From assembly GCF_900116515.1 (NCBI RefSeq), contig NZ_FPBA01000005.1, positions 124,001-188,000 of the forward strand: 64,000 nt of DNA. Direction: 5' to 3'. The DNA is from Geodermatophilus amargosae. Its GTDB lineage: Bacteria; Actinomycetota; Actinomycetes; Mycobacteriales; Geodermatophilaceae. The notes beneath the pieces were generated by a model. It did no database searches, was not told where the DNA came from, and worked only from the letters and a program-made list of their open reading frames with translations. This document shows positions 37,366-57,346 of this stretch, in pieces. How positions within the stretch are numbered: position 1 is the stretch's first letter; the number at the start of each line of letters is the position of its first letter. The position numbers and the translations under genes were made by a program.

Positions 37366-37415
37366 GGGCCCCGCCGCGAGCGTGCGAGGGGCGGGGGCAG
37401 GGAGGTCCTTCGTCA
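37366..37415 (-). repeat. Structured stop-codon-abutting repeat, copy A
   Basis: Outer arms 37366-37374 and 37397-37405 pair perfectly over nine bases. The centre holds CGAGCGTGCGAGGGG and the right flank reads GGTCCTTCGTCA, whose final TCA is the stop codon of the 50-residue gene. Copies B (43.9 kb) and C (56.1 kb) share centre and flank but have different, still complementary, arms. Confidence 0.8.
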
Positions 37416-37565
37416 GACCTCGCGGGTGAAGAACGCGCTGCTGTTGGCCATGGTGAGCAGCTCGTCGCGCATCGCGGGGCTGCCGGTACGGGCGAGAGCC
37501 CGGTCGATGGCCCGCCGCGTGCGAGCCGCCTGCCGACGCTGGCGCCAAGTGGTCCCGATGGACAT
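37413..37565 (-). CDS. Small basic protein (50 aa)
   Basis: A 50-residue protein, MSIGTTWRQRRQAARTRRAI followed by DRALARTGSPAMRDELLTMA and NSSAFFTREV. A strong GAGGGAG lies upstream of ATG 37565. The Arg-rich first helix and the conserved-looking SPAMRDELLTMAN suggest a real, widely kept actinobacterial small protein, perhaps nucleic-acid binding. Function unknown. An AT-richer stretch upstream (37600-37680) likely holds its promoter. Confidence 0.7.
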   Translation of the reverse strand: MSIGTTWRQRRQAARTRRAIDRALARTGSPAMRDELLTMANSSAFFTREV

Positions 37566-37702
37566 GTCCGTGTCTCCCTCTTCGGTACGTCTTCGTCCTA
37601 CACCCATAGCAAAGCAGGTGTGGACGTCAATATTCCGAAGGATCGCAGGGACTGTCATGTGATGTCCGACGATCGTTCACCCATCGGAGAGGTCATGCCC
37701 CC

Positions 37703-39385
37703 TCACGCGCGGGTCAGCACCCCCCGCGCCGCGGCCCGTGCCGCCCGCGGGTCGTCGGCGGCCAGCGCGGCGGCCGCGGCGTCCCGGCAGGCGGCGAGGT
37801 CGGCGGTGGCCAGCCGCGCACCGACGCCCGCGACGGCCGATCCGGCGCAGGACAGGGAGGTCACGCCGAGACCGACGAGGACACAGGCGAGCAGCGGGTC
37901 GGCCGCGGCCTCGCCGCAGACGCCCACCGGCTTGCCCGCCCTCCGGCCCGCCGCCGCCGTCGTCTCCACCAGCGCCAGCAGGGCCGGCTGCCAGGGGTCG
38001 GTGAGGTCGGCCAGGTCGGCGGAGAGCCGGTCCGCGGCCAGCGCGTACTGCGACAGGTCGTTGGTGCCGATGGACAGGAAGTCGACGTGCCGCAGCATCC
38101 GGTCGGCCAGCAGCGCTGCCGAGGGGACCTCGACCATCACGCCGGGCACCAGCCCCCGCTCCCGCACGCGCGCGGCGAAGTCCGCGGCCTCGCCCTCGGT
38201 GGCCACCATCGGCGCCATCACCCACGGCGCGGTACCGGTACGGCGGGCGGCCTCGGCGACGGCGTCGAGCTGGCGGTCGAGCAGACCGGGGTCGCGGCGG
38301 GCCACCCGCAGGCCGCGGACGCCGAGCGCCGGGTTGGCCTCCTCGGGCGGCGTCGCGAACTCCAGCGGCTTGTCCGACCCGGCGTCGAGGGTGCGCAGGA
38401 CGACCCGCCGGCCGGCCGCTGCCTCGAGGACGTCGGCGTAGCCGCTCGCCTGTTCCTCGACGGTCGGCTCGGAGGCCCGGCCGAGGAAGGCGAGCTCGGT
38501 GCGGAACAGGCCGACCCCCTCGGCGTGCGCGCGCAGGGCGGCCCGTGTGCCGTCGCCGTCCTGGACGTTGGCCAGCACCGGGACCGCGACGCCGTCGCGG
38601 GTGGTGCCCGGCCCGGCGTACCCGGCCAGCGCCTCGGCGGCCCGGCGCGCGGCGGCGAGCTGGCCGGCGGCCGCCTCCGGGTCGGGGTCGACGGTGACCG
38701 CACCCTCCTCGGCGTCGAGGAGGACCGTCGCGCCGGCGGGGACGGCGTCGAGGCCCTCCACCGCGACCACTAGGGGCAGGCCCAGCTGGCGGGCGATGAT
38801 CGCGGTGTGGCTGGTGGTCCCGCCCAGGCGGGTGGCCAGCCCGACGATCCGCGCGGGGTCCAGGCCGGCGGTGTCGGCGGGGGCGAGGTCGTCGGCGAGC
38901 AGGACCGAGGGCTCCGCCGGCGAGGGGACGCCGGGCTCCCCCTGGCCGGTCAGTTCGGCCACCACGCGGTCGCGGACGTCGCGCACGTCGGTCACCCGCT
39001 CGGCCATCACGCCGCCCAGCGAGGTGAAGACGTCGACGAACTGCTGCGCGGCCTGCACGGTCGCCACGGCGGCGGGGACGCCGGCGGTGATCCGCTGCTC
39101 GACCGCGCCCAGCAGCCCGCGGTCGCGCGCCATCCCGGCGGTCGCCGACAGGACCTCGGCGGTCATCCCCGTCGCGGCCGCGGCACGCTCGGCCAGCCGG
39201 CCGGCGACGGCCTCGGCGGCCGCGGTGAACCGCGCCCGCTCCTCCTCCCGGGCCGTCTCCGGCAGCGGGTCGAACGCCTCGGCGGGCAGGATCACCGCGC
39301 CGGACGGGCGGACGACGGGACCGAGGACCACGCCGGGGACGACCGGCGTCCCGGTGAGCACGGTGCGGGCGGCGGTGGTGGACAT
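37703..39385 (-). CDS. ptsI: PTS enzyme I (phosphoenolpyruvate-protein phosphotransferase)
   Basis: A 560-residue cytosolic enzyme that takes phosphate from PEP and passes it to HPr. The phospho-His motif is LGGTTSHTAIIARQLGLPLV; the PEP-binding barrel shows GVGLFRTELAFLGR, LRTLDAGSDKP, VMVEVPSAALLADRMLRHVD, FLSIGTNDLSQYALAADR and the active-site Cys in KPVGVCGEAAADP. The length matches EI. It is divergent from the fruR-fruK-fruA-ptsH operon with 187 bases between starts, so the general PTS components EI and HPr are both embedded in the fructose locus. Confidence 0.96.
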   Translation of the reverse strand: MSTTAARTVLTGTPVVPGVVLGPVVRPSGAVILPAEAFDPLPETAREEERARFTAAAEAVAGRLAERAAAATGMTAEVLSATAGMARDRGLLGAVEQRITAGVPAAVATVQAAQQFVDVFTSLGGVMAERVTDVRDVRDRVVAELTGQGEPGVPSPAEPSVLLADDLAPADTAGLDPARIVGLATRLGGTTSHTAIIARQLGLPLVVAVEGLDAVPAGATVLLDAEEGAVTVDPDPEAAAGQLAAARRAAEALAGYAGPGTTRDGVAVPVLANVQDGDGTRAALRAHAEGVGLFRTELAFLGRASEPTVEEQASGYADVLEAAAGRRVVLRTLDAGSDKPLEFATPPEEANPALGVRGLRVARRDPGLLDRQLDAVAEAARRTGTAPWVMAPMVATEGEAADFAARVRERGLVPGVMVEVPSAALLADRMLRHVDFLSIGTNDLSQYALAADRLSADLADLTDPWQPALLALVETTAAAGRRAGKPVGVCGEAAADPLLACVLVGLGVTSLSCAGSAVAGVGARLATADLAACRDAAAAALAADDPRAARAAARGVLTRA

Positions 39386-39457
39386 GCGGACCTCACGTCG
39401 GTCGGAGGGATGGCGGGCGCCGGACCTCGTCGTCCGTGACCAGCCTCACCACTTGGT

Positions 39458-39487
39458 GTTGACTTGTCAACGTAATCCACGTAGAAC
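39458..39487 (+). promoter_or_regulatory. fru operon promoter with GTTGAC/GTCAAC palindrome
   Basis: TTGACT at 39459-39464 and TAGAAC at 39482-39487 are 17 bases apart, a good promoter for the fru operon. The -35 box lies inside the perfect 14-base dyad 39458-39471 (GTTGACTTGTCAAC), a likely operator for the DeoR-type regulator, whose family often binds TGTCAA-like sites. The region also serves the divergent ptsI gene. Confidence 0.7.
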
Positions 39488-39572
39488 AACACAGACACAA
39501 GTCCGGTCCCACACGATCGGGCATCTGCCGAGGCCCCGCCGTGGTCTCGCGCACCGACCGAGGGGATGGACG

Positions 39573-40340
39573 GTGTACGCCGAGGAGCGCCAGCAGGCCA
39601 TCGCCACACTCGTCGTCGAGCAGGGGCGGATCGCGGTCACCGCGGTGGCCGACCAGTTCGGTGTCACCACCGAGACGGTGCGCCGGGACCTCGCCACCCT
39701 CGAGCGGGCGGGTGTCCTGCGGCGCGTGCACGGGGGCGCGGTACCCGCCGCGGCGCTCACCCTCGTGGAGACGGCCCTGGCCGAACGCCACGCCACCCAC
39801 GCCGAGGCGAAGCGCAAGATCGCCGCCGCGGCGCTGGACCTGCTGCCCGGCCGCGGCGGCAGCCTGCTGCTCGACGGCGGGAGCACCACGGCGGCCCTGG
39901 CGGACGTGCTGCCGGCCGACCGGACGCTGTTCGTGGCCACCAACTCGGTGCCGATCGCCGCGCGGCTGGCCAACGCCCCGGGCGTCACCCTGCACGTGCT
40001 GGGCGGCCGGGTCCGCGGGCTGACCCAGTGCGCCGTCGGTGAGACGCCGGTGCGGGCGCTGGCCGACCTCCGGGTCGACGTCGCCTTCCTGGGTACGAAC
40101 GGCATCGCCCCCGGCCACGGTCTGACCACCCCGGACGAGGCCGAGGCCTCGGTCAAGCGGGCCATGGTGCGCGCCGGCCAGCGGGTGGTCGTGCTGGCCG
40201 ACAGCAGCAAGCTCGGACGCGAGCACCTGGTCCGTTTCGCCTCCCTCGACGACGTCGACGTGGTCATCACCGACGGCGGGGCCGAACCGGCCGTCCTCGA
40301 CCACCTGGAGGCCTCGGGCGTCGAGGTCGTGGTCGCGTGA
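39573..40340 (+). CDS. DeoR-family regulator of the fructose PTS
   Basis: A 255-residue repressor. The N-terminal HTH reads VYAEERQQAIATLVVEQGRI, VTAVADQFGVTTETVRRDLA, TLERAGVLRRVHGGAV, and the C-terminal sugar-phosphate domain has LLLDGGSTTAALADVL and VVVLADSSKLGREHLVRFA. DeoR-type FruR proteins typically respond to fructose-1-phosphate, made here by the PTS and consumed by FruK. GTG 39573 sits after GAGGGGATGG. Its stop overlaps fruK by four bases. It probably binds the dyad in its own promoter region and controls both divergent transcripts. Confidence 0.92.
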   Translation: MYAEERQQAIATLVVEQGRIAVTAVADQFGVTTETVRRDLATLERAGVLRRVHGGAVPAAALTLVETALAERHATHAEAKRKIAAAALDLLPGRGGSLLLDGGSTTAALADVLPADRTLFVATNSVPIAARLANAPGVTLHVLGGRVRGLTQCAVGETPVRALADLRVDVAFLGTNGIAPGHGLTTPDEAEASVKRAMVRAGQRVVVLADSSKLGREHLVRFASLDDVDVVITDGGAEPAVLDHLEASGVEVVVA

Positions 40341-41362
40341 CCGGCGGCCGCACGCACGGGGGACGGGTCGTCACGCTGACGGCCAACCCCAGCCTCGACC
40401 GGACGCTGGCCCTCCCCGGCCCGCTGGCCCGTGGCGGGGTGGCCCGCCTGGGCGCCAGCTCGACCGAGCCGGGCGGCAAGGGCGTCAACGTCGCGCGGGC
40501 GCTGGCCGCCGCCGGCGCCGACGTCGTCGCCGTGGTCCCGGCCGACCGGACCGACCCGCTGGTCACCGCACTGACCGCGCTCGGGCTGCCGCTGCTCACC
40601 GTGCCCACCGGCACCCCGGTGCGCACCAACTACTCGCTGACCGAGCCCGACGGCACCACCACCAAGCTCAACGAGCCGGGGACGGCCCTCGACGAGGACA
40701 CCCGGGCCGCGCTCGGGGCCGTGCTGACCGGGGCCGCGGCCGAGGCCCGCTGGGTGGTGCTCTCCGGCTCCCTGCCGCCCGACACGCCCGCGGACTGGTA
40801 CGCCGAGCTGGTCCGGGCGGTCCGGCCCACCGGCGCCCGCGTCGCGGTCGACACCTCCGAGGCGCCGCTGCGCGCACTGCTCGCCGCCGGGCCCGACGCG
40901 GCGCCGGACCTGCTCAAGCCCAACGCCGAGGAGCTCGCCCAGGTCGCCGGCACCACGGAGGCCGCGCTCCTGGCCGACCCGGCCGCACTGCGCGCCGCGG
41001 TCCGGTCGCTGCACGCCGGGGGCGTCGCCGAGGTGCTGCTGACCCTCGGTGGCGACGGCGCCGTGCTGTCCACGGCCGACGGCGTCTGGTCGGCACGCGC
41101 GCCGCGCACCACCGTCCGCAGCACCGTCGGCGCCGGTGACTCGAGCCTGGCCGGCCACCTGCTCGCCGACCTGGCCGGCGCCCCGCCCGCCGAGCGGCTG
41201 CAGCGCGCGGTCGCCACCGGCTCGGCCGCCGCCGCGCTGCCGGGGTCCGCGGTGCCGGTGCCGCACCAGGTCGACCCGGCCGCCGTCGTCGTGGCGCCCG
41301 GCCTGTCCGGGCTCGCGCCCTCCCCCGATCCCGTCGCGGCCGCCGGCCGCGACGTCCCCTGA
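40337..41362 (+). CDS. fruK: 1-phosphofructokinase
   Basis: A 341-residue PfkB-family kinase that converts fructose-1-phosphate to fructose-1,6-bisphosphate. Motifs: VVTLTANPSLDRTLALPGPL, EPGGKGVNVARALAAAGADV, LSGSLPPDTPADWY, and the C-terminal STVGAGDSSLAGHLLA with the catalytic Asp. TANPxLD and GGKGxNVA distinguish FruK from ribokinases. The GTG overlaps the regulator stop (GTGA). It is followed after 18 bases by fruA. Confidence 0.94.
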   Translation: MTGGRTHGGRVVTLTANPSLDRTLALPGPLARGGVARLGASSTEPGGKGVNVARALAAAGADVVAVVPADRTDPLVTALTALGLPLLTVPTGTPVRTNYSLTEPDGTTTKLNEPGTALDEDTRAALGAVLTGAAAEARWVVLSGSLPPDTPADWYAELVRAVRPTGARVAVDTSEAPLRALLAAGPDAAPDLLKPNAEELAQVAGTTEAALLADPAALRAAVRSLHAGGVAEVLLTLGGDGAVLSTADGVWSARAPRTTVRSTVGAGDSSLAGHLLADLAGAPPAERLQRAVATGSAAAALPGSAVPVPHQVDPAAVVVAPGLSGLAPSPDPVAAAGRDVP

Positions 41363-41380
41363 CGCCCCGGAAGGTCCGTC

Positions 41381-43513
41381 ATGACCGCACTCATCTCCCC
41401 CGAGCTGGTCGTCCTCGACGCCGACCTGGGCTCCGACAAGGCCGCGGTGGTCCGCCGGCTGGCGGGCCTGGTCGCCGACGCGGGCCGTGCCACGGGCGCC
41501 GATGCCCTGGCCGGTGACGCGCTGGCCCGTGAGGCCCAGGCCGCCACCGGCCTGCCCGGCGGCATCGCGATCCCGCACTGCCGGTCGGCCGCGGTGACGC
41601 AGGCGTCGCTGGCCTTCGCCCGCCTGGAGCCCCGGGTCGACTTCGGCGCTGCCGACGGACCCGCCGACCTGGTCTTCCTCATCGCCGCCCCCGCGGCCGG
41701 CGACGCCGACCACCTCACGCTGCTGTCCGCGCTGGCCCGCGCCCTGGTCCGGCCGGACTTCGTCGCCTCGCTGCGGGCCGCGGGCTCGGCGCAGGACGTC
41801 GTCGCACTGGTCGAGGAGGTCGTCTCCCCCAAGCCGGCCACCGGTGCGACCGCGGCGACCTCGGTCCCCTCGCCCGCGAGCTCCCCGGCGGCCGCCGAGC
41901 CCGCGGCCGGATCCGCTGCCGCCGCTCCGGCCCGCCGCCGCCTGATCGCCGTCAGCGCCTGCCCCACCGGCATCGCGCACACCTACATGGCCGCGGACAA
42001 GCTCGCCGCCGCCGCGCAGGCCGAGGGCGTCGACCTCGTCGTCGAGACGCAGGGCTCCTCGGGCTCCACCCCGCTGGACCCGGCGCTCATCCGCGACGCC
42101 GAAGCGGTCATCTTCGCCGTCGACGTGGGTGTCAGGGACCAGGACCGGTTCGCCGGGAAGCCGGTGATCCAGTCGGGGACGAAGCGGGCCATCAACGAGC
42201 CCGAGGTGATGATCCGCGAGGCGCTCGCGGCCGCCGACGACCCCCACTCCCGCAAGGTGGCGGGCAGCGGCGCCGCGGCTGCCGCGTCCACCTCCGGCGG
42301 CGGCGGCAGGCCGGGCACCGGCGCCGAGGTCCGCCGCTGGCTGCTCACCGGCGTCAGCTACATGATCCCGTTCGTCGCGGCGGGCGGCCTGCTCATCGCG
42401 CTGAGCTTCCTGCTGGGCGGCTACCGGATCGTCACCGGCAACCCCGACGTCGAGGGCCAGAACTACGCGCTGAGCTGGGTGCTGAGCAACTCGCTGTTCG
42501 ACCTGCCCAGCGCGCCGGGCATCGAGGGCCTCAACGACGGCCTCCTCGGCTACCTCGGCGCGGTGTGCGCGGTCCTCGGCCAGGCGGCGTTCGGCTTCCT
42601 GGTGCCGGCGCTGGCCGGCTACATCGCCTACGCGATCGCCGACCGTCCGGGCATCGTCCCCGGTTTCGTCGTCGGCGCCGTGTCCGGCAGCGTGGGCGCG
42701 GGCTTCATCGGCGGTCTCGTCGGCGGTGTGATCGCCGGCTTCGCCGCCCGGTGGATCGCCTCCTGGAAGCTGCCGACCGGTGTCCGCGGGCTCCAGCCGG
42801 TCGTGATCATCCCGCTGCTGGCCACCGTCATCTCCAGCGGCCTGATGGCCGTGGTCCTCGGCCGCCCACTGGCCGCGGCGCTCTCGGGGCTGGGCAACTG
42901 GCTCAACGGCCTGACCGGCACCTCGGCGGTGCTGCTCGGGATCATCCTCGGCCTGATGATGTGCTTCGACCTCGGCGGCCCGGTGAACAAGGCGGCCTAC
43001 GTCTTCGCCACCACGGGCCTGGCCGCGGGCAGCGGCGCCCCGCTGGTCATCATGGCCACGGTCATGGCCGCGGGCATGGTCCCGCCGCTGGCGATGGCGC
43101 TGAGCACCGCCGTCCGGCCCCGGCTCTACACCCCGGCCGAGCGGGACCAGGGCAAGGCGGCCTGGCTGCTCGGTGCCTCGTTCATCTCCGAGGGGGCCAT
43201 CCCGTTCGCCGCGGCCGACCCGTTCCGCGTCATCCCCTCGATGATGCTCGGCGGGGCCACCACCGGCGCGATCGTCGCGGCCAGCGGCGTCGAACTGCGG
43301 GCCCCGCACGGCGGCATCTTCGTGCTCTTCGCGATGAACGGGGTGCTGATGTTCCTCGTCGCCCTGCTCGTCGGCACGGTCGTCGGCGCGCTCGCGGTCA
43401 CCGTCGCCAAGAGCATCGGCCGGAAGAAGGCCGACGAGGTGCCCGAGGACGCCGTCGACCTCGCCCACGCCCACAACCCGGCTCCCGCCGTCAGCGCGCC
43501 CGCGCGCGTCTGA
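41381..43513 (+). CDS. fruA: Fructose-specific PTS enzyme II, EIIA-EIIB-EIIC fusion
   Basis: A 710-residue membrane transporter that imports fructose and releases fructose-1-phosphate. Order: EIIA (residues 1-150, phospho-His in GGIAIPHCRS near 65), Ala/Pro linker, EIIB (about 185-290, phospho-Cys in AVSACPTGIAHTYMAADKLA), linker, then EIIC with about nine membrane segments, including SYMIPFVAAGGLLIALSFLL and LGIILGLMMCFDLGGPVNKA. The A-B-C order and GGxYR motif match FruA of actinobacteria. It takes phosphate from HPr, encoded 51 bases downstream. Confidence 0.96.
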   Translation: MTALISPELVVLDADLGSDKAAVVRRLAGLVADAGRATGADALAGDALAREAQAATGLPGGIAIPHCRSAAVTQASLAFARLEPRVDFGAADGPADLVFLIAAPAAGDADHLTLLSALARALVRPDFVASLRAAGSAQDVVALVEEVVSPKPATGATAATSVPSPASSPAAAEPAAGSAAAAPARRRLIAVSACPTGIAHTYMAADKLAAAAQAEGVDLVVETQGSSGSTPLDPALIRDAEAVIFAVDVGVRDQDRFAGKPVIQSGTKRAINEPEVMIREALAAADDPHSRKVAGSGAAAAASTSGGGGRPGTGAEVRRWLLTGVSYMIPFVAAGGLLIALSFLLGGYRIVTGNPDVEGQNYALSWVLSNSLFDLPSAPGIEGLNDGLLGYLGAVCAVLGQAAFGFLVPALAGYIAYAIADRPGIVPGFVVGAVSGSVGAGFIGGLVGGVIAGFAARWIASWKLPTGVRGLQPVVIIPLLATVISSGLMAVVLGRPLAAALSGLGNWLNGLTGTSAVLLGIILGLMMCFDLGGPVNKAAYVFATTGLAAGSGAPLVIMATVMAAGMVPPLAMALSTAVRPRLYTPAERDQGKAAWLLGASFISEGAIPFAAADPFRVIPSMMLGGATTGAIVAASGVELRAPHGGIFVLFAMNGVLMFLVALLVGTVVGALAVTVAKSIGRKKADEVPEDAVDLAHAHNPAPAVSAPARV

Positions 43514-43564
43514 CACGGCAGGCTCGACCCCGTCCACCCACCCCGAGCAGCGAGGACACCGCCC

Positions 43565-43825
43565 ATGCCCACTCAGACCGTCACCGTCGGCTCCCGGGTC
43601 GGCCTGCACGCCCGCCCGGCCGCGCTCATCGCCGAGGCCGTGGGCAAGGCCGGCGTCCCGGTCACCCTGGCCACGCCCGGCGGCAACCCCGTCGACGCCG
43701 GCTCGCCGCTGATGATCATGACGCTCGGTGCCCAAAAGGGCGCCGAGGTCACCGTCACCAGTGACGACGCCGCCGTGGTCGAGCAGATCGCGGGCCTGGT
43801 GGCCGCCGACCTCGACGCGGAGTAG
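43565..43825 (+). CDS. ptsH: Phosphocarrier protein HPr
   Basis: An 86-residue cytosolic phosphocarrier. The active site is His15 in SRVGLHARPAALIAEAV. The Ser46-type regulatory region reads NPVDAGSPLMIMTLGAQKG, but the position of the regulatory serine used by HPr kinase in Firmicutes is not clearly kept, as expected for actinobacteria. It shuttles phosphate from EI (ptsI, divergent) to FruA EIIA. It is the last gene of the fru operon and is followed by a large palindromic terminator. Confidence 0.96.
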   Translation: MPTQTVTVGSRVGLHARPAALIAEAVGKAGVPVTLATPGGNPVDAGSPLMIMTLGAQKGAEVTVTSDDAAVVEQIAGLVAADLDAE

Positions 43826-43831
43826 CACCCG

Positions 43832-43863
43832 CAGGCGGCAGAGACGCCCGTTCCTGCCGCCTG
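43832..43863 (+). terminator. First hairpin after ptsH
   Basis: Arms CAGGCGGCA (43832-43840) and TGCCGCCTG (43855-43863) around a 14-base loop lie 7 bases after the ptsH stop. It precedes a much larger palindrome. Confidence 0.7.
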
Positions 43864-43867
43864 ACCG

Positions 43868-43923
43868 CACAGACGACGGCGCCCGTCCCCTCCGGCCGGA
43901 GGGGACGGGCGCCGTCGTCTGTG
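43868..43923. terminator. Perfect 56-bp palindrome between ptsH and the convergent SRPBCC gene
   Basis: Bases 43868-43895 are the exact reverse complement of 43896-43923, with no spacer. In RNA this gives a hairpin of over 25 base pairs from either strand, so it can terminate both convergent units. Repeat copy B begins three bases later. Confidence 0.85.
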
Positions 43924-43926
43924 TTC

Positions 43927-43988
43927 GGCCTCGCTGCGGGGACCCGCCCCGAGCTTGCGAGGAGTGGGGGCAGCGAGGTCCTCGCTCA
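43927..43988 (-). repeat. Structured stop-codon-abutting repeat, copy B
   Basis: Arms 43927-43937 and 43970-43980 pair over eleven positions (one G-T). The centre holds CCCGAGCTTGCGAGGAG and the flank GGTCCTCGCTCA ends in the stop codon (TCA) of the SRPBCC gene. It shares centre and flank with copies A and C but not arm sequence. Confidence 0.82.
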
Positions 43989-44453
43989 GGCCTGGTCGGG
44001 GCGCGGGACGTCGCCGCGCCAGGCGCCGGTCTCGGTGCCACGGCTCTCGATGAACTCCTTGAACCGCTTGGCGTCGGCCTTGACCTGGCGGTCGTCGAAG
44101 CCGAGCGCGGCACCGGCCTTCTCGACGAGCCCGGTGGGCTCCCAGTCGATCTGGATCATGACGCGGGTCTTGGTGTCGTCGAGGCGGTGGAAGGTGACGA
44201 CCCCGGCGTGCTTGGCGTCGCCGCCGGTGCTCGTCCAGGCCACCCGCTCCTCGACGTGCTGCTCGGTGATCTCGGCGTCGAACTCACGCTTCACACCGTC
44301 GATGTTGGTGACCCAGTGCGTGTGCGTGTCGTCGATCTGCGTGATGCGCTCGACGCCGCCCATGAACTGGGGGAAGGACTCGAACTGCGTCCACTGGTCG
44401 TAGGCGACCCGGATCGGGACGTCGACGTCGACGGACTGCTGCACGCTCGCCAC
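43986..44453 (-). CDS. SRPBCC-family (polyketide cyclase/START-like) protein
   Basis: A 155-residue protein: ASVQQSVDVDVPIRVAYDQW, TQFESFPQFMGGVERITQID, DTHTHWVTNIDGVKREFDAE and VAWTSTGGDAKHAGVVTFHR fit the SRPBCC hydrophobic-cavity fold (Polyketide_cyc2 group). These small proteins bind lipids or hydrophobic ligands; no enzymatic function can be assigned. GTG 44453 is preceded by AGAGGAG. It follows the AGE epimerase gene by 79 bases on the same strand and its stop is embedded in repeat copy B. Confidence 0.85.
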   Translation of the reverse strand: MASVQQSVDVDVPIRVAYDQWTQFESFPQFMGGVERITQIDDTHTHWVTNIDGVKREFDAEITEQHVEERVAWTSTGGDAKHAGVVTFHRLDDTKTRVMIQIDWEPTGLVEKAGAALGFDDRQVKADAKRFKEFIESRGTETGAWRGDVPRPDQA

Positions 44454-44532
44454 GGGAACGCTCCTCTTGGCTCGGGGTGTCGTTGCGGTCCTCGCGCCCC
44501 TACCCCGGGTCGCTGGAGGGGACACACCCGGG

Positions 44533-45714: not shown

Positions 45715-45718
45715 GCGG

Positions 45719-47633: not shown

Positions 47634-47647
47634 TCGACCATGGTCGA
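47634..47647. promoter_or_regulatory. 14-bp palindrome in a divergent promoter region
   Basis: TCGACCATGGTCGA is a perfect dyad between the kinase operon and the divergent membrane-protein gene. It is a plausible binding site for the LuxR-type regulator of the kinase operon, linking both directions. No direct evidence. Confidence 0.5.
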
Positions 47648-47770
47648 CACCGCGGTCGCGACCCGCCGCCGCGGACTGTGGACCGCAGACCGATGCCGGC
47701 CGCCCCCGGCCGTTCCTAGCTTTCTCGGCGACCGCCTGACCAGGCGCTCCCACCGACCCGAGGAGCTCTC

Positions 47771-48334: not shown

Positions 48335-48344
48335 GCCCCCGGAC

Positions 48345-48378
48345 GGAGGGCCTGCCGACGTCGGTCGGCAGGCCCTCC
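48345..48378. terminator. Bidirectional terminator, 15-bp perfect arms
   Basis: Arms 48345-48359 and 48364-48378 are exactly complementary around a four-base loop, placed between the stops of the membrane protein and the convergent bkdC. It can end both transcripts. Confidence 0.88.
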
Positions 48379-48393
48379 ACCCGTGCGCGGGAC

Positions 48394-49878: not shown

Positions 49879-49879
49879 C

Positions 49880-50860
49880 TCAGAAGCCCATCGAGCGGTC
49901 GACGGCGTCGAGCACGCGGTCGAGGTCGGGGAGGTACTCCTCCTCGAGCTTCGACGGCGGGTACGGGGTGTCGTAGCCGCCCACGCGCAGCACCGGCGCC
50001 TCCAGCGAGTGGAAGCAGGTCTCGGTGACCCGGGCGGCGATCTCCGCGCCGAGGCCGAGGGTCACCGCCGCCTCGTGGACGACGACGCACCGCCCCGTTC
50101 GGCGGACGGAGTCGAACACCGGGTCGAGGTCCAGCGGCGAGAGCGTCCGCAGGTCGACGACCTCGATCGAGCGGCCCTCCTCGGCCGCGGCCTCGGCGGC
50201 CTGCAGCGCCGTCTTCACCATCGGGCCGTAGGCGAGCAGCGTGACGTCGTCGCCGCCGCGCAGCACCCGCGAGGCGAACAGCGGGCCGGGCGTCGCGTCG
50301 GTGTCGACCTCGGCCTTCTCCCAGTACCGCCGCTTGGGCTCGAGGAAGACGATCGGGTCGGGGTGGGCGATGGCCTGCTGGATGCCCCAGTAGGCGTCGA
50401 CCGGGTTGCTGACGGCGACCACCTTCAGGCCCGGGGTGTGCGCGAAGTACGCCTCGGGGCTCTCGCTGTGGTGCTCGACGGCGCCGATGCCGCCGCCGAA
50501 GGGGATCCGGATGACGATCGGCATCGGCAGGCGGCCGCGGGAGCGGGCGTGGATCTTGGCGACCTGCGTGACGATCTGGTTGTAGGCCGGGAAGACGAAG
50601 CCGTCGAACTGGATCTCACAGACCGGCCGGTAGCCGCGCATGGCCAGACCGACGGCGGTGCCGAGGATGCCGGCCTCGGCCAGCGGGGTGTCGACGACGC
50701 GGTCCTCGCCGAAGTCCTTCTGCAGGCCGTCGGTGATCCGGAAGACCCCGCCGAGACGGCCGATGTCCTCGCCCATGAGCACGACCTTGGCGTCGTCCTC
50801 CATGGCCCGGCGCAGGCCCAGGTTGAGGGCCTTGCCGATGGTGAGCGTCTCGGTGCTCAT
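49880..50860 (-). CDS. bkdB: Branched-chain keto-acid dehydrogenase E1 beta subunit
   Basis: A 326-residue subunit, the usual length. Motifs: LTIGKALNLGLRRAMEDDAK, VVLMGEDIGRLGGVFRITDG, DTPLAEAGILGTAVGLAMRG, RPVCEIQFDGFVFPAYNQIV, MPIVIRIPFGGGIGAVEHHS, IVFLEPKRRYW. The PFGGGIGAVEHHSES segment carries the active-site His of the E1 heterotetramer. Its ATG overlaps the stop of the 27-codon bridge ORF (ATGA), and its stop is one base before bkdC. Confidence 0.94.
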   Translation of the reverse strand: MSTETLTIGKALNLGLRRAMEDDAKVVLMGEDIGRLGGVFRITDGLQKDFGEDRVVDTPLAEAGILGTAVGLAMRGYRPVCEIQFDGFVFPAYNQIVTQVAKIHARSRGRLPMPIVIRIPFGGGIGAVEHHSESPEAYFAHTPGLKVVAVSNPVDAYWGIQQAIAHPDPIVFLEPKRRYWEKAEVDTDATPGPLFASRVLRGGDDVTLLAYGPMVKTALQAAEAAAEEGRSIEVVDLRTLSPLDLDPVFDSVRRTGRCVVVHEAAVTLGLGAEIAARVTETCFHSLEAPVLRVGGYDTPYPPSKLEEEYLPDLDRVLDAVDRSMGF

Positions 50861-50940
50861 GACTCGACCCCGCCCTCGTTCCGCTCCTCGGTCGCCGGCG
50901 CTCCCTGCGATGCCCGCTCGGGCGTCGTCCTCGCGTCCAT
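50857..50940 (-). CDS. 27-codon open frame bridging bkdA and bkdB
   Basis: Between bkdA and bkdB a 27-codon frame begins at the ATG overlapping the bkdA stop (TGATG) and ends in a TGA that overlaps the bkdB ATG (ATGA). The peptide is MDARTTPERASQGAPATEER followed by NEGGVES, hydrophilic and without a family. A ribosome could pass from bkdA to bkdB through it without a gap, so it may function only as a translational bridge. Whether the peptide is made or conserved is unknown. Confidence 0.55.
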   Translation of the reverse strand: MDARTTPERASQGAPATEERNEGGVES

Positions 50941-52109
50941 CAGTGCCCGGCCCCCTCGAACGACGCCTGGTACGCCTCGAACTCCGCCTGCTGCGCGGCC
51001 AGGTGCGGCGTCTGCTCCGCGTACACCCGGTCGAACATCGCCGTGCCCGGTGGATCGGCCATGTCGACCGTGCCGGACCGGATCCGCTTGGCCAGCTCGT
51101 CACCCTCGGCCTCGACGGCGTCGAAGAAGGCGGCGTCGGCCACACCGGTCCGCGACAGGTACGCCTTGACCCGGGCGATGGGGTCGCGCAGCTTCCACTC
51201 CTCGAGCTCGCTGGCCAGGCGGTAGCGGGTGGGGTCGTCGGAGGTGGTGTGCGCGCCCATCCGGTAGGTGAAGGCCTCGATGAACGTCGGCCCCTGGCCC
51301 TCGCGGGCGGCGGCCAGTGCCGCGCGCGTCACGGCGAGGACGGCCAGGACGTCGTTGCCGTCGACCCGCACACCGGGGAAGCCGAACCCGGCCGCGCGCT
51401 GGTACAGCGGCACCCGGGACTGCCGCTCCAACGGCACGCTGATCGCGTACTGGTTGTTCTGGCAGAAGAACACGACCGGGGCGGAGAAACTGGCCGCCCA
51501 GATCATCGCCTCGTTGACCTCGCCCTGGCTGGTCGCGCCGTCGCCGAGGAAGGCCAGCGCCGCGCTCTCGGCGCCGTCGCGCTGCAGGCCCATGGCGTAG
51601 CCGGTGGCGTGCAGCGTCTGCGCGCCGATCACGACGGTGTAGAGGTTGAAGCCGGTGGCCACCGGGTCCCAGCCGCCGTTGTCCACGCCGCGGAACAGGC
51701 TGATGACGTGCAGCGGGTCGACGCCGCGGGTCCAGGCCACGCCGTGCTCGCGGTAGGTGGGGAAGGCGGTGTCGCCGTCGGCCATCGCCCGGCCGGCGCC
51801 GATCTGGGCGGCCTCCTGGCCCAGCAGGGAGGCCCAGATGCCGAGCTCGCCCTGGCGCTGCAGGGCGGTGGCCTCGACGTCCCAGCGGCGGACCAGCACG
51901 AGGTCGCGGTAGAGGCCGCGCAGCTCCTCGGCGGAGACGTCGATGGAGTAGTCGGGGTGCTCGAGCCGCTCGCCCTCGGGGCTGAGCAGCTGCACCAGGT
52001 CCGGTTGCTGCGGCAGGTGCGGCGCACCCGCTCCCGGTACGGGGTCCACCGCCTCCGTCGTGACGCTCGGCAGGGCCGGGCTGTCCGGTTCGCTCACGAG
52101 CTCGCGCAC
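50940..52109 (-). CDS. bkdA: Branched-chain keto-acid dehydrogenase E1 alpha subunit
   Basis: A 389-residue thiamine-diphosphate enzyme. TPP motif: LAFLGDGATSQGEVNEAMIW then PVVFFCQNNQYAISVP; phosphorylation-loop-like TYRMGAHTTSDDPTRYR; N-terminal YRDLVLVRRWDVEATALQRQ. These and the lack of an E1-homodimer domain identify the alpha subunit of a 2-oxoisovalerate dehydrogenase type. GTG 52109 has GAGGAG upstream. It is the first gene of bkdABC, divergent from an Lrp-type regulator with a two-site operator in the 217-base gap. Confidence 0.93.
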   Translation of the reverse strand: MRELVSEPDSPALPSVTTEAVDPVPGAGAPHLPQQPDLVQLLSPEGERLEHPDYSIDVSAEELRGLYRDLVLVRRWDVEATALQRQGELGIWASLLGQEAAQIGAGRAMADGDTAFPTYREHGVAWTRGVDPLHVISLFRGVDNGGWDPVATGFNLYTVVIGAQTLHATGYAMGLQRDGAESAALAFLGDGATSQGEVNEAMIWAASFSAPVVFFCQNNQYAISVPLERQSRVPLYQRAAGFGFPGVRVDGNDVLAVLAVTRAALAAAREGQGPTFIEAFTYRMGAHTTSDDPTRYRLASELEEWKLRDPIARVKAYLSRTGVADAAFFDAVEAEGDELAKRIRSGTVDMADPPGTAMFDRVYAEQTPHLAAQQAEFEAYQASFEGAGH

Positions 52110-52248
52110 TGCGCTCTCTCCTCGCCGTCGGCCGCGGCTGCCGGGGTCGCCGGCCGGCTGCGGTGCTGGACGTCTGTGGGCGCCGGGGTGTGGCGCCACT
52201 CACACATCGTGGCACGGCCGGCTCGTTCCGGAGCACATCACCCCCCGG

Positions 52249-52286
52249 ACGGATTGCGCAAGGTCGCCACGACGGACTGCGCAGGA
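52249..52286. promoter_or_regulatory. Two-site operator between bkdA and the Lrp-type regulator
   Basis: Two similar blocks, 52249-52263 and 52272-52286, are spaced by 23 bases (about two helical turns). Each contains an 8-base palindrome: TTGCGCAA at 52254-52261 and CTGCGCAG at 52277-52284. Lrp proteins bind as multimers to such phased sites, so this is a likely BkdR operator controlling bkd and itself. Confidence 0.7.
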
Positions 52287-52326
52287 TGACAACTGGTAGG
52301 ACGTCCGAACGTGCCAGACTGAGCAC

Positions 52327-52827
52327 ATGCCGCCCGGTCCGGACCGTCTGGACGCCACCGACGCGCGCCTGGTCCAGGCCCTCACCGAGGACCCCCGCGC
52401 CACGGTGATGGCCCTGTCCCAGCGGCTCGGGCTGGCCCGCAACACCGTGCAGTCGCGGCTGGCCCGGCTGGAGTCCGGCGGGCTGCTCGCCCCCTTCGAG
52501 GCGCGGGTGAGACCGGAGGCCCTCGGCTACCGGCTCGGCGCCTACATGACCGTGCAGGTCGTGCAGCGCAGCCTCGAGGAGGTCGCGTCCGCCCTGGCCG
52601 CGCTGCCCGAGGTGCTCGAGGTGACCGCGCTGTCCGGCGCAGCCGACCTGCTCGTGCGGGTGGTCGCCGTCGATGCCGACGACCTGTGGCGGCTCACCGA
52701 GCAGGTGCTCGCCGTCCGCGGCGTGGAGCGCACCGACACCGCGCTGGCGCTGCGCCGCTACGTCGACCACCGGGTCGCGCCGCTGCTGGAGCGCGCCGCG
52801 GGAGCGGACACGCCCGCCACGGGGTAG
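52327..52827 (+). CDS. Lrp/AsnC-family regulator of the bkd operon
   Basis: A 166-residue regulator: HTH DATDARLVQALTEDPRATVM, ALSQRLGLARNTVQSRLARL, and a RAM ligand domain GAYMTVQVVQRSLEEVASAL, EVTALSGAADLLVRVVAVDA. Its divergent position next to bkdABC and the phased palindromes between them identify it as a BkdR-type regulator, which usually senses branched-chain amino acids or their keto-acids and activates bkd. The ATG start is family-like. Confidence 0.9.
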   Translation: MPPGPDRLDATDARLVQALTEDPRATVMALSQRLGLARNTVQSRLARLESGGLLAPFEARVRPEALGYRLGAYMTVQVVQRSLEEVASALAALPEVLEVTALSGAADLLVRVVAVDADDLWRLTEQVLAVRGVERTDTALALRRYVDHRVAPLLERAAGADTPATG

Positions 52828-52867
52828 CGACGCCCGCGACCCGGCTGCCCGCCGTGTCCCCGGCCGG

Positions 52868-53122
52868 TCAGCGCCCGGCGCGCCGGACCCGCACGGGGCC
52901 GCGGGCGGTGGCGACGTCGACCACCGCGCCGCGCTGGGTCACCTCGACCTCGCCCCGCTGCGCCAGCCGCCCGGCCGCCGCGCGGGCCTGCGGCATGAGG
53001 TCGCGCCAGCCCTCCGGGTCGACGGCGCGGGCCGCCTCGGACGGGCAGATGGTGGCGCCGGGGGCGCGGGCGTCGAGCAGCGCGTCGATCGCGCGCTCGA
53101 GGGCGGGGCCGGCGTCGTCCAC
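52868..53122 (-). CDS. DUF3253 protein
   Basis: An 84-residue winged-helix-like protein, VDDAGPALERAIDALLDARA, PGATICPSEAARAVDPEGWR, DLMPQARAAAGRLAQRGEVE, VTQRGAVVDVATARGPVRVR. This matches DUF3253, small cytosolic proteins of unknown function found in proteobacteria and actinobacteria. GTG 53122 fits the domain; longer starts add unrelated residues. It is convergent with the Lrp gene. Confidence 0.85.
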   Translation of the reverse strand: MDDAGPALERAIDALLDARAPGATICPSEAARAVDPEGWRDLMPQARAAAGRLAQRGEVEVTQRGAVVDVATARGPVRVRRAGR

Positions 53123-53192
53123 GCCCCCAGGATGCACCGACCTCAGGGTGCGCCCGTTTGTCCTGGTGAGCGCGACGGGTACCGCCGGAGGC

Positions 53193-53711
53193 ATGGCGAA
53201 GCGCACCCCGGTCGGGACGATCGGCAAGGGCAAGCGGGGCATCAGCACGCTGGGCTGGGCGGTGCGGGGCGCCGCGGCGGGGGCAGCCGGGACGACGGCC
53301 CTCAACGCCGTCACCTACCTCGACATGACCGTCCGCGGGCGCGGCTCCAGCTCGACGCCGGAGCAGACGGTGGAGGCCCTCGCGCAGAAGGCGCACCTGC
53401 CCATCCCCGGCGACGAGGAGAAGCGGCAGAACCGGATCGAGGGGCTCGGGCCGATGACCGGCCTGGTCGCGGGCATCGGCGTCGGCGTGCTCACCGGGCT
53501 GGCGCGGGCGTCGGGGTTCAGGTCGCAGCCGCTGGTGGGGACGCTGCTCACCACGCTCGGTGTCCTGGTGGCCTCCAACGGCCCGATGACGGCGCTCGGG
53601 ATCACCGATCCGCGGACGTGGTCGGCCACCGACTGGATCAGCGACGTCGTGCCGCACCTGGCCTACGGCGCCGTCCTCAAGACCACGATGGACGCCTTCG
53701 ACAGGCCCTGA
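53193..53711 (+). CDS. Conserved actinobacterial membrane protein (172 aa)
   Basis: A 172-residue protein with a basic N-terminus (AKRTPVGTIGKGKRG), then weakly hydrophobic segments (GWAVRGAAAGAAGTTALNAV, TGLVAGIGVGVLTGLARASG, PLVGTLLTTLGVLVASNGPM) and SATDWISDVVPHLAYGAVLK. GGAGGC precedes ATG 53193. The NAVTYLDMTVRGRGSS motif is one I recognise as recurring in actinobacterial proteins of unknown function. Its TGA lies inside a 63-base palindrome shared with the convergent hydrolase gene. Confidence 0.75.
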   Translation: MAKRTPVGTIGKGKRGISTLGWAVRGAAAGAAGTTALNAVTYLDMTVRGRGSSSTPEQTVEALAQKAHLPIPGDEEKRQNRIEGLGPMTGLVAGIGVGVLTGLARASGFRSQPLVGTLLTTLGVLVASNGPMTALGITDPRTWSATDWISDVVPHLAYGAVLKTTMDAFDRP

Positions 53712-53772
53712 GGCATAGGAAGCTCTCCGCACGTCTCGGCGGCCGAGACGTGCGGAGAGCTTCCTATGCCTC
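53710..53772. terminator. 63-bp perfect palindrome containing both convergent stop codons
   Basis: Arms 53710-53740 and 53742-53772 are exactly complementary over 31 bases around a single base. The TGA of the membrane-protein gene and the TAG of the serine-hydrolase gene both fall within the arms. It is less GC-rich than its surroundings. It should be a very strong bidirectional terminator. Confidence 0.9.
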
Positions 53773-55104
53773 GTCGATCGGGAGGGTCCAGCCGCGGGGG
53801 TCGACGTCGCCGGGCACGGGGGCCGCGGGGTCGTAGGGCTCGCGGGTGAAGACGAACGTGCCCAGGTCCAGGTGGTCCGGGGCGATCCGCAGCGGCTCCC
53901 CGGCGTGGTAGCCGTCCAGGCCCACCCACGTGCCGTCCGCGAGCGGGCGGAAGCGGCTGGCCCGCCCCGACCGGCCGGGCAGCGGCCCGAGCTGCAGCAG
54001 ACCGCCGGCCACCGCGCGCAGCACGTACGGCGCCGGGCCCCAGTACCAGGTACCGAGCTGGTCCAGCGGCACCGACGGCTCCGCCGGCCGCCACGGCTCG
54101 ACCACCCGCGGCTCGGCGGCGCGCAGGTCGGCGAGCAGTCCGGGGACCAGGGCGTCGAGGCCGCTGGTGGTGTTGGCCAGGGAGACACCGCCGGTGCCCT
54201 CCTCGCGGTCGACGAACACCCCGGCGAGGAAGCCGGGCATCGAGCCGCCGTGGCCGGTGAGCGTGCGGCCGTCGACCCGCAGCACCTGCAGGCCCAGCCC
54301 GTACGCCGCCCAGGCCGGTGAGGAGGGGTCGACGCCGGCCGGCACGGCCATCTCCTCCAGCGTCGCCGGGGACAGCACGTCGCCGGTGTCGCCGAGCAGG
54401 AAGGCGGCGAAGCGGGCGAGGTCGGTGAGCGTCGCCCACAGCTGCCCGGCCGCGGCCATCACGCCGGCGTGGTGCTCGGGCTCGGCCAGGACGACGTCGG
54501 CCCACGGGTGGACGGCGTACCCCTGCGCGGCCCGGCCGGACGGGCGCGGCGTCGTCCGGGTCATGCCGAGCGGCGCGAGCACCTCGTCGGCGACGACGTC
54601 GTCCCACGCCCGCCCGCACAGCCGCGCCACGAGCTCGCCGAGCAGGCCGAAGCCGAGGTTCGAGTAGTGGAAGCGCCGGGCCTCCCCCAGCACGGCGTGC
54701 TCGCCGGTCAGCCCCAGGTCGGCGAGCGACCCGCCGGGCACCCGCTCCCACCAGCCGCCCGGACTCTCCGCGGCCGCGCCGGCCAGGTGCGAGAGCAGCT
54801 GCCCGACCGAGCGGTCCCCGAACGGCGTCCCGGGCACGTGGCGGTCCAGCGGGTCGTCCAGGGCGAGCCGGCCCTCGTCGCGCAGCCGCATGACCGCGAC
54901 GGCGGTGACGGTCTTGCTGATCGACCCCAGCCGGTACTGGACGTCGGTGTGCGGCTCGGCGACGTCGCCCCGCCCGGCCGACCAGGCCAGCCCGCCGTCC
55001 CGGACCACGCCGGCGACCAGGCTCGGCGCCCGGCCGTCGCGCTGCACCCGCGCCGTGCGGGCCAGCAGGGTGCGGGCGGTCGAGGGCAGCACGGGCTCGG
55101 GCAT
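53764..55104 (-). CDS. Serine hydrolase, beta-lactamase/D-alanyl-D-alanine carboxypeptidase class C fold
   Basis: A 446-residue protein. The nucleophile motif is YRLGSISKTVTAVAVM (SxxK), with the second motif YSNLGFGLLGELVAR (YxN) and HGGSMPGFLAGV as the third. A ~110-residue C-terminal beta domain follows. No signal peptide is visible, so it is probably a cytosolic esterase or peptidase rather than a secreted penicillin-binding protein. Substrate unknown. It is followed, on the same strand, by nothing before the palindrome; upstream is a DUF3817 gene 15 bases away. Confidence 0.88.
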   Translation of the reverse strand: MPEPVLPSTARTLLARTARVQRDGRAPSLVAGVVRDGGLAWSAGRGDVAEPHTDVQYRLGSISKTVTAVAVMRLRDEGRLALDDPLDRHVPGTPFGDRSVGQLLSHLAGAAAESPGGWWERVPGGSLADLGLTGEHAVLGEARRFHYSNLGFGLLGELVARLCGRAWDDVVADEVLAPLGMTRTTPRPSGRAAQGYAVHPWADVVLAEPEHHAGVMAAAGQLWATLTDLARFAAFLLGDTGDVLSPATLEEMAVPAGVDPSSPAWAAYGLGLQVLRVDGRTLTGHGGSMPGFLAGVFVDREEGTGGVSLANTTSGLDALVPGLLADLRAAEPRVVEPWRPAEPSVPLDQLGTWYWGPAPYVLRAVAGGLLQLGPLPGRSGRASRFRPLADGTWVGLDGYHAGEPLRIAPDHLDLGTFVFTREPYDPAAPVPGDVDPRGWTLPIDEA

Positions 55105-55119
55105 GCCCGGAACGGTAGG

Positions 55120-55437
55120 TCAGGTCCGGGCGGGGACCCCCAGCCGCCCGGTGCGCCCGGCCCAGCGCTCGAACACCACGGTGGCCAGCGGCGGGATCGA
55201 GGCCGCCAGCGCGAGCAGCGTCGTCCCCCGCGACCAGCCGAGCACCCGGGCGGTCACGAGCGACACCGCCACGTAGGCGACGAACACCGCGCCGTGGATC
55301 GGCCCGAACACCTGCACGCCCAGCTCGGAGGTCTCCGGCACGTACTTGACGTACATCCCGGCCAGGAGGCCGACCCAGGACAGGGCCTCGGCGACGGCGA
55401 CGGTGCGGAAGGCCAGGGCGACGGTGCGGGGGTTCAT
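55120..55437 (-). CDS. DUF3817 membrane protein
   Basis: A 105-residue inner-membrane protein with three helices: [40 protein letters not shown] and [20 protein letters not shown]. The family motif EALSWxxLLxGMxxKY and GPIHGxxFVxY define DUF3817 (YdzA-like). Function unknown. It is upstream of the serine hydrolase in the same direction and divergent from the next gene. Confidence 0.9.
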
Positions 55438-55540
55438 CGGTGCGGGGTCTCCTGCGTCGGGGCGGGTCTCGTCGTCTCAACGCGGCGGCGGGTCCGGGTG
55501 TCCCGCCTGCCGGTGTGACCTGGGTGGCAGGGTCGGGCGG

Positions 55541-56074
55541 GTGCGGGGTCTGGCGCGGCGGGAGTTCTGCCTGGTCCTGCTGCGCCGGATGGCCGACCTG
55601 CGGCCCGACCTCGTCGCCGCCGCCCTGCCGCGACTCGGGGCCACCCGCGCGGAGGCGCACGCGGCGCACACCCGCTGGCAGGCGCTGCACCACGCGCCAC
55701 GGGCGCCACGCGGCCTGGCGCTGCGCACCGCCGTCCTGGGGCCGGCCCCGGAGACCGAGGACCGCCGGTTCGGTGACCTCGACCTCGAGGTCCGCCGCTG
55801 GCCGCTGCCGCTGTGGCCGCACCTGCGCTGGGAGGTGCTGTCCGGCCCCGGCGGCAGCGTGCTGCACGAGCACCTGGTGCGGGCCGCCGGCTCCCCGGTC
55901 CCGCCGGCGGCCGACGGGCGGCTGCGGGTGTGGGAGCACGTGGTGGCCGACGTCAGCGGCCTCCCCGGTGCGGTGGAGGTCGACCCCCAGGTGATCACCC
56001 GCTGGGAGGTGCGGCTGCCCTCGGGCGCGACCGCGGCCTTCGTCTGGGGCCTGCTGCAGAGCGTCCGGACGTGA
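55541..56074 (+). CDS. Hypothetical protein (177 aa)
   Basis: A 177-residue soluble protein: [40 protein letters not shown], then [40 protein letters not shown] and [20 protein letters not shown]. Alternating charged helices and beta-like segments suggest a folded enzyme or binding domain, but I do not recognise a family. GTG 55541 is divergent from the DUF3817 gene. A perfect hairpin follows its stop. Confidence 0.6.
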
Positions 56075-56110
56075 CGGAGCCCCGGCACCCGAGTGGGTGC
56101 CGGGGCTCCG
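56075..56110. terminator. 16-bp perfect hairpin after the 177-aa gene
   Basis: Arms 56075-56090 and 56095-56110 are exactly complementary with a four-base loop, starting one base after the stop. It precedes repeat copy C, the same order (palindrome, then repeat) as seen near 43.9 kb. Confidence 0.88.
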
Positions 56111-56113
56111 CCC

Positions 56114-56171
56114 GGCCCCGTCCGGAGGCTCATCCCGAGCCTGCGAGGGACGAGGGGGACGGGGTCCTTCA
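56114..56171 (-). repeat. Structured stop-codon-abutting repeat, copy C
   Basis: Arms 56114-56123 and 56157-56166 pair over ten positions (one G-T). The centre is TCCCGAGCCTGCGAGGGA and the flank GGTCCTTCA ends in the stop codon of the RipA-like gene. Centre and flank match copies A and B; the arms differ but stay complementary. Confidence 0.83.
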
Positions 56172-57323: not shown

Positions 57324-57346
57324 GCGGCTGTCTCTCCTTCTCCCAT

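Follow-up and report, generated by a model that had tools for sequence, protein, structure and literature searches.

What kind of element changes its sequence from copy to copy, keeps its pairing, and stands behind the stop codons of unrelated genes? This question is raised by a 64,000-nucleotide stretch of the Geodermatophilus amargosae genome (contig NZ_FPBA01000005.1, positions 124,001 to 188,000; the window), in which three copies of a short structured element, A, B, and C, each lie next to the end of a minus-strand gene. An earlier interpretation made without database searches (the sequence-only reading) had proposed either an RNA element acting at gene 3' ends in stability or termination or a miniature mobile repeat that prefers targets beside stop codons. 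Our analysis favors the latter. The element is most probably a non-autonomous, miniature, palindromic mobile DNA of the Geodermatophilaceae that resembles repetitive extragenic palindromes (REPs) or miniature inverted-repeat transposable elements (MITEs) in size, abundance, and lifestyle. The evidence lies in its copy number, the pairing kept as the arms change, its presence and absence between relatives, its nesting in itself, its precise placement behind TGA stops, and a few clean junctions that lack a target duplication.

All three copies are present by direct reading of the window. The exact core CGAGCNTGCGAGG occurs at 37377, 43950, and 56136 and nowhere else in it; a search with two mismatches added nine matches, but the 12 then obtained fall short of the 32 expected on average by chance, so only the exact core matches are meaningful. 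Copy A forms a plus-strand hairpin at 37356 to 37408 with outer arms CCTCCCTGC/GCAGGGAGG, an inner stem, a CGAG-CGTG-CGAG cap, and a bulged T at its base (GGTCC). Copy B (43927 to 43981, plus strand) has outer arms CCTCGCTGC/GCAGCGAGG and the cap CGAG-CTTG-CGAG, and copy C (56114 to 56167, plus strand) has outer arms CCCCGTCC/GGACGGGG and the cap CGAG-CCTG-CGAG. The interval first proposed for A began inside the element and omitted part of it, the left arm CCTCCCTGC occupying 37356 to 37364. The stop codon had also been taken for the end of the element, which is incorrect: the minus-strand TGA at 37413 to 37415 is exactly 4 nucleotides (nt) from the GGTCC base of copy A (TGA|CGAAGGACC), that at 43986 to 43988 is 4 nt from the base of copy B, and that at 56169 to 56171 is 1 nt from the base of copy C (TGA|AGGACC). 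These stops end three minus-strand genes that are indeed unrelated, namely an 81-amino-acid open reading frame (ORF; 37413 to 37658), a polyketide-cyclase-type gene (43986 to 44453), and an NlpC/P60 gene (56169 to 57323). Since the 81-amino-acid ORF has no Pfam match, it is less certain as a gene than the other two. Recoding of the type seen with a selenocysteine insertion sequence (UGA plus hairpin) was considered and set aside, the flanking genes being unrelated.

The exact 13-base core matched 30 times in the 5.87-Mb host genome, compared with a single match for a reversed-pattern control, and by eye each of the 30 belongs to a complete element with its parts in the same order. A covariance model built from these 30 core-bearing copies, which include A, B, and C (76, 66, and 63 bits, respectively), was used to search further genomes, as the sequence-only reading had suggested, and it recovered many more copies across the family. 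There were 148 matches among the 150 candidates scored in the host genome (weakest E value, 0.009) and 141, 151, and 151 among those listed for three other genomes of the genus, with the same number of candidates scored, that is, over a hundred copies in each of the four genomes counted. Of 298 sampled genomes of the order, for which the best 17 candidates per genome were scored, 69 had matches: 51 Geodermatophilaceae and 18 members of other families with one or two matches each. Every Geodermatophilaceae genome listed (51) matched, and the 20 listed of the 229 match-free genomes included none of this family. Contamination is likely in three of the 18 outside genomes that were checked, because their estimated contamination is 2 to 4% and their matches are mostly on small contigs. 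Three genomes within the family are poor in copies, with 1, 5, and 8 matches. A copy-poor species (G064; loci L217, L219, and L221) was seen by eye to carry variants with another loop (CACGACGCGCTC or similar) and much the same ends behind stops. A pattern scan of GTDB gave at least 117 stretches, all from Geodermatophilus, Blastococcus, Modestobacter, or Goekera except for one record named "Bacillus sp. AZ43" (UNVERIFIED_ORG, locus L080), a label that is probably wrong, since the record carries a family-specific element. IMG/VR, searched for phage carriage, contained no exact pattern match, and no Rfam family matched the elements, whether by gathering score in the window or up to an E value of 1 in five element loci. 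A literature search, judged by titles and the openings of abstracts and with most subscription journals outside its reach, found no published description of this repeat.

Read 5' to 3' along the upstream gene's strand, the unit consists of the stop codon, a few nucleotides, GAAGGACC, an arm, the inner stem, CTCGCANGCTCG, the inner stem again, the partner arm, and GGCC. Its limits are approximately NGAAGGACC and GGCC, and of 197 copies measured from GGACC to GGCC, 100 span 54 nt and 51 span 56 nt. In a minority of copies (L003, L008, L032, L051, L090, L108, L173, L208, and others), GGCC is followed by a second conserved tail, GTTCCAGCACGTCACC; this tail also occurs, together with the 3' half of the hairpin, as tandem arrays in which the arms are sometimes different.

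The claim that the outer arms vary and yet pair is strongly supported. Standard pairs filled 93.8% of pair cells, compared with 80.8% and 81.3% when the 3' letters were shuffled (94 and 142 distinct copies, respectively), and the cells changed on both sides numbered 191 versus 51 and 291 versus 80 in the same two sets; none of 500 shuffles reached the observed values. When the arms were slid by 1 to 3 columns, pairing fell to 46 to 58%. The inner stem was tallied on 124 of the 142 copies and the outer stem on 116, among which there were 71 distinct arm pairs. The alignments were fitted to a model of prespecified structure, and shuffle tests are inflated when sequences are related, so that more weight falls on the slid controls and on the distinct arm pairs. 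A T-A to C-G exchange in the arm was also seen by eye in an orthologous copy common to two species. Single-copy folding energies were unremarkable (z about -0.5 to -1.4 against shuffles, only slightly better), and thus the evidence for structure is covariation rather than energy. By eye, the 5' internal loop (GAG or GGG) seems to covary with the inner stem pair (CTC-GAG or CCC-GGG), a three-way link that a simple hairpin leaves unexplained. For intrastrand triplexes, which would link GAG-CTC-GAG columns, the available portion of one paper (PMC4666352) does not name the genera that carry the element.

Would matching arms have to reflect selection? Template switching or cruciform "correction" of imperfect palindromes makes arms match without it, and the covariation could stem mainly from this process in copies that are otherwise inert. 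The large differences between the arms of different copies are compatible with such an origin. Correction should, however, erase imperfections, and the hairpin has several: between an outer stem of free sequence and a short loop lies an inner stem in which a G.U(T) wobble is usual, a T is bulged at the base, and the top is usually a CGAG...CGAG cap containing two tandem G.A mismatches. In CGAG/CGAG the G.A pairs are of the tandem sheared type, and CNTG serves as a tetraloop. On the gene strand, A.C would replace the G.T of the wobble, and C.T would replace the G.A mismatches in the cap. The better-folding strand is therefore the one antisense to the abutting upstream gene, which for copy A is the plus strand; the wobble and the cap are the main grounds for this assignment.

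The pattern used in the GTDB search had fixed the cap, the wobble T, and GGTCCT, so we recounted these features on 112 copies not chosen for them, 30 found in the host by the core alone and 82 found by the covariance model only; the model itself had still been derived from the 30 core-bearing copies. An earlier tally had located the outer end by GGTCC or GGTTC, so the T that it scored in 116 of 116 copies, and most of the G.T that it scored in 101 of 124, do not count as independent evidence. In the recount, the wobble position was G.T in 75 copies, A-T or G-C in 32, and A.C in 2, and the hairpin base was G-T-C in 94. The 30 core-found copies had G.T in 24, A-T in 3, G-C in 2, and A.C in 1, with a G-T-C base in 28; the 82 model-only copies had G.T in 51, G-C in 19, A-T in 8, and C.A in 1, the remainder being other or gapped, with G-T-C in 66. 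The imperfections thus tend to persist, which argues against correction as the main source of the covariation, though shared descent could also keep them; we regard an origin mainly by correction as rather unlikely. The mobile reading is independent of the wobble and bulge figures, and its probability is therefore unchanged by the recount.

The element turns over between close relatives. We compared contig 48 of the host with the syntenic 200 kb of a relative, G170, at about 92% DNA identity. Two of the 13 host copies tested were shared, 8 were absent, and 3 were not resolvable (2 of 10 resolved copies shared); in the other direction, 2 of 9 G170 copies were shared and 7 were absent from the host. 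Two empty sites are the cleanest. At the first, GTCTGA|GCAC corresponds to the filled site GTCTGA[CGAAGGACC...GGCC]GCAC, and at the second, TTCTGA|GCCTCGCGAC (GCCTCG after the TGA) corresponds to TTCTGA[...]GCCTCGCGAC. Flanking direct repeats of at least 5 nt, as a target duplication would leave, were found in 2 of 197 copies, compared with about 5 when the flanks were dealt out anew. Among 25 orthologues of the gene next to copy B, read by eye, about 6 have a copy directly behind the stop, about 8 have one elsewhere in the next 150 nt, and about 11 have none. We also considered whether the element might carry its own TGA, which we thought unlikely: far copies lack a TGA, and at 8 of the 11 TGA-adjacent sites with a counterpart readable by eye in a relative, that relative has TGA (the other 3 have TAA or TAG).

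Copies are also found inside copies. In four cases the arms of one copy resume on the far side of another, at 107, 108, 153, and 165 nt, and a further nest was seen after an orthologue of copy B. Nests occur in both orientations, and the loop of the copy that hosts the second one is gone in several (L126, L136, L154, and L079). In a separate survey, 26 genomes were searched and 19 loci were read, the other 7 being missed by the anchor. By eye, a copy forms the N-terminal extension or start of a protein that we take from its sequence to be PyrE-like (L197:18608-19210, minus strand; L249 to L274) in 13 of these 19 orthologues, with 5 lacking it and 1 partial; this start appears to be an old coding insertion of the hairpin.

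Placement behind stop codons was counted on 209 of 236 hits, the others being dropped because no GGACC was found, an edge was too near, or the hit was a duplicate. Gene calls came from our own codon-usage script, so a few stops may be wrong, and the backgrounds were taken from the window and loci L031 to L147 and L186 to L205, which are not quite the loci of the 209 copies. In 145 of the 209 distinct copies, GGACC has a same-strand stop no more than 12 nt away, compared with 4.1% of noncoding positions by chance. The idea that the element always abuts a stop is thus true of A, B, and C but fails for 64 copies across the family. Exact TGA-N-N-N-N-GGACC (TGA|N-GAAGGACC; TGA+4) accounts for 74 of the 209 copies, against 0.27% by chance. 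This spacing occurs in 74 of 108 TGA cases but in 1 of 37 TAG or TAA cases (Fisher, 2.7e-13), and the contrast recurs among pattern-found copies (49 of 61 versus 1 of 22), host core copies (9 of 16 versus 0 of 6), and model-only copies (16 of 31 versus 0 of 9). TAG cases favor gaps of 2 and 5 nt (11 and 7 of 27) and TAA cases a gap of 0 (5 of 10), and at some of these gaps the stop codon is completed by the element's own GAA. One copy follows a TGA that is not a called stop, although the first 100 nt downstream of stops contain 440 TGAs of this kind, compared with 1,126 stop TGAs. Because the spacing is almost confined to TGA and non-stop TGAs are hardly used, the data fit neither a rule of "any stop at a fixed distance" nor one of "any TGA." Plain recognition of the sequence CTGA as the target was likewise rejected, as far copies and non-stop TGAs lack it.

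Copies away from stops were seen by eye to be often nested in other copies or beside promoter-like TAGGGT boxes. Such copies sometimes terminate right at a TAGGGT or similar box resembling, by eye, an actinobacterial -10 element, as at L037, L053, L066, L112, L120, and L185 and upstream of pyrE in several species.

Turnover between relatives, nesting, and the preference for the position right after a TGA stop all fit the miniature mobile repeat that the sequence-only reading had offered as one option. Further copies, paired arms, and a preference for stops, whose absence that reading had named beforehand as counting against it, were all found.

Could the hairpin instead be an RNA element of gene 3' ends, such as a terminator, an mRNA stabilizer, or a ribosome-release or -stalling hairpin, selected at a fixed distance behind the stop and spread only incidentally? 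Precise placement, compensatory arm changes, and the many copies between convergent or tandem genes would be expected of such an element, and E. coli REPs at most 15 nt from a stop have been reported to stall ribosomes (available portion of PMC12306157). Yet most resolved copies are missing at the same gene in a close relative, the TGA spacing is not shared by TAG and TAA genes, the wobble folds on the strand other than the upstream gene's mRNA, and some copies lie within coding DNA or inside each other. Native palindromes, moreover, are still found downstream at about the usual rate: perfect palindromes of at least 9 bp follow 7 of 21 convergent genes with the element and 73 of 294 without it, and 7 of 59 versus 49 of 498 tandem genes, with 2 of 32 versus 12 of 174 and 0 of 20 versus 13 of 444 at short gaps. 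Because these palindromes persist, the element is not in general the terminator of its gene, and termination as the primary role, which had been suggested earlier, was rejected on this ground and on turnover between relatives. A secondary effect of the hairpin on transcripts is possible; as a full account of the element, selection on an RNA function of this kind seems distinctly improbable to us.

Two such palindromes stand beside copies in the window. One, a perfect palindrome at 43870 to 43921 that is probably a bidirectional terminator, lies between the plus-strand HPr gene (43565 to 43825) and copy B and was seen by eye to be kept in most orthologous loci whether the element is present or not. 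The other, a perfect palindrome and probable terminator at 56076 to 56109, was read directly between the plus-strand gene at 55541 to 56074 and copy C. The NlpC/P60 gene that bears copy C at its 3' end has a c-di-AMP (ydaO/yuaA) riboswitch just 5' of it (57335 to 57478, minus strand; 63.5 bits). A weak and possibly decayed fourth match, at 5495 to 5574 on the minus strand (19.5 bits; E value, 0.003), overlaps the end of a plus-strand methyl-accepting chemotaxis gene (4587 to 5537) and was not relied on.

If the element is mobile, what moves it? A REP moved by a REP-associated tyrosine transposase (RAYT), of the IS200/IS605 Y1 type, would fit the palindromy, abundance, 3' location, bulged base, and lack of a target duplication. 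A search for the Y1_Tnp domain (Y1/RAYT), whose control was positive in 5 of 14 known genomes, found it in none of 19 genus genomes and none of 22 family genomes at an E value of 0.001. Nor is a tag conserved: in 197 copies, counted up to 8 nt from the one end and the other, GTAG occurred 10 and 1 times, CTAC 1 and 0 times, CGTC 3 and 5 times, and GACG 22 and 12 times, that is, in at most 10 of 197 for the tags on the strand as written and 22 of 197 for the complement of CGTC. The replication-strand bias expected of lagging-strand insertion of single-stranded DNA was not significant among the 150 best-scoring copies of three genomes, with the terminus assumed to be opposite dnaA (65 versus 85; P = 0.12), and lagging-strand insertion was not retained. 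Mobilization by a RAYT was therefore rejected for the genomes searched; it is largely refuted there for present-day activity, and we consider it highly improbable. On the G307 chromosome, the fifth of the replichores farthest from dnaA holds 7 of the 103 listed copies, compared with 23 to 25 in each other fifth.

Mobility by reverse transcriptase was discarded as well, since the presence of RVT_1 did not correlate with copy number: the domain is present in 13 of 22 genomes overall but absent from the host, with its 148 matches, and from six others with at least 17 matches. An arm-pair search of the retrieved loci revealed no recognizable autonomous parent; it returned four nested copies and four longer-range pairs that we took for chance.

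We propose that a trans-acting enzyme would recognize the folded single strand by its shape, which would leave the arms free to drift while still pairing, and would join the hairpin just 3' of a TGA stop without duplicating the target. Landing between the stop and the native terminator would be nearly harmless, so copies could accumulate. A further idea is that integration is coupled to translation or its termination, the hairpin reading TGA as a stop codon rather than as a trinucleotide and being joined right after it by an enzyme that belongs to none of the known REP/RAYT, IS200/IS605 Y1, or retroelement classes. It was suggested by the 74 copies that follow stop TGAs against one at a non-stop TGA, with other stops hardly used at that spacing, but we put it forward as speculative and unlikely.

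Several observations weigh against the element being mobile DNA of this kind. No mobilizer was found, neither a Y1_Tnp protein in the genus and family genomes nor a reverse transcriptase in the host, and the strand bias was not significant. Few junctions are clean, the filled version of the second site carrying 7 extra bases after GGCC, and the 3' end is less sharp where the tail GTTCCAGCACGTCACC follows GGCC. Deletion could account for some of the "absent" sites. At the 3 of 11 readable sites noted above, TGA is replaced by TAA or TAG in the relative, and the 64 copies not behind a stop fall outside the proposed target. The cap and bulge are less constant in the 82 model-only copies than pattern-found copies would indicate, with exact CGAGCNTGCGAG in 35, CGAG...CGAG in 57, and GGTCC in 69, and the strand assignment depends chiefly on the wobble and cap.

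Mobile palindromic DNA nevertheless remains our preferred interpretation. Small mobile palindromes are widespread, and their movers are known mainly for RAYT-linked families. With family-wide copies, high turnover, no Y1 protein found, a few clean junctions, and a stop-specific target, the element makes the spread of transposase-less REP-like repeats directly testable, and it offers a good case for shape recognition with free arm sequence.

How does it compare with known repeats? REPs are described as GTAG- and CGTC-tagged palindromic repeats of 20 to 40 nt that reach high copy numbers and lie chiefly 3' of genes and in the gaps between convergent or tandem ones, with some inside genes (available portion of PMC3733652). 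The same portion reports that CGTC-group REPs lack a dedicated transposase, that some families are inserted within palindromes, and that untagged REP-like families exist, one of them in the actinobacterium Mycobacterium tuberculosis; the phyla it gives for tagged families do not include Actinobacteria. Like REPs, our element is a short, high-copy, extragenic palindrome near gene 3' ends with some copies inside genes. Unlike the tagged REPs, it is about 54 nt long, lacks a GTAG or CGTC tag, has a two-storey stem with a tandem G.A cap, a usual G.U, and a bulged T, and is placed to the single nucleotide behind TGA stops.

The element shares a non-autonomous, palindromic nature with YPAL, ERIC, RUP, and RPE (available portion of PMC2229807). 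Filled and empty sites and dyad-symmetric targets recall YPAL, and presence inside coding genes recalls RPE. YPAL, however, makes target duplications of 3 to 26 bp, and RUP targets TA, whereas our element makes no duplication and targets the TGA stop, a distinction drawn from the descriptions in the same portion (PMC2229807). The lack of a target site duplication likewise separates it from MITEs of DDE transposons. A GC-rich hairpin just after the stop codon resembles an intrinsic terminator, from which the element differs in its presence/absence polymorphism, the other palindromes still downstream, its largely conserved core sequence, and its lack of a consistent T-tract (tail TCCTTC).

The target of mycobacterial interspersed repetitive units (MIRUs) is DTGA. 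MIRUs and our element are both actinobacterial mobile repeats tied to TGA-containing stop or start codon sequences, but MIRUs are described as entering at start codons and as bringing a coupled ORF with them, while our element is a hairpin 3' of stop codons whose arms covary (available portion of PMC12548453). Although no RAYT was found in the genomes searched and it has neither the tag nor the target duplication of the classes nearest to it, the element works like a REP or a small MITE.

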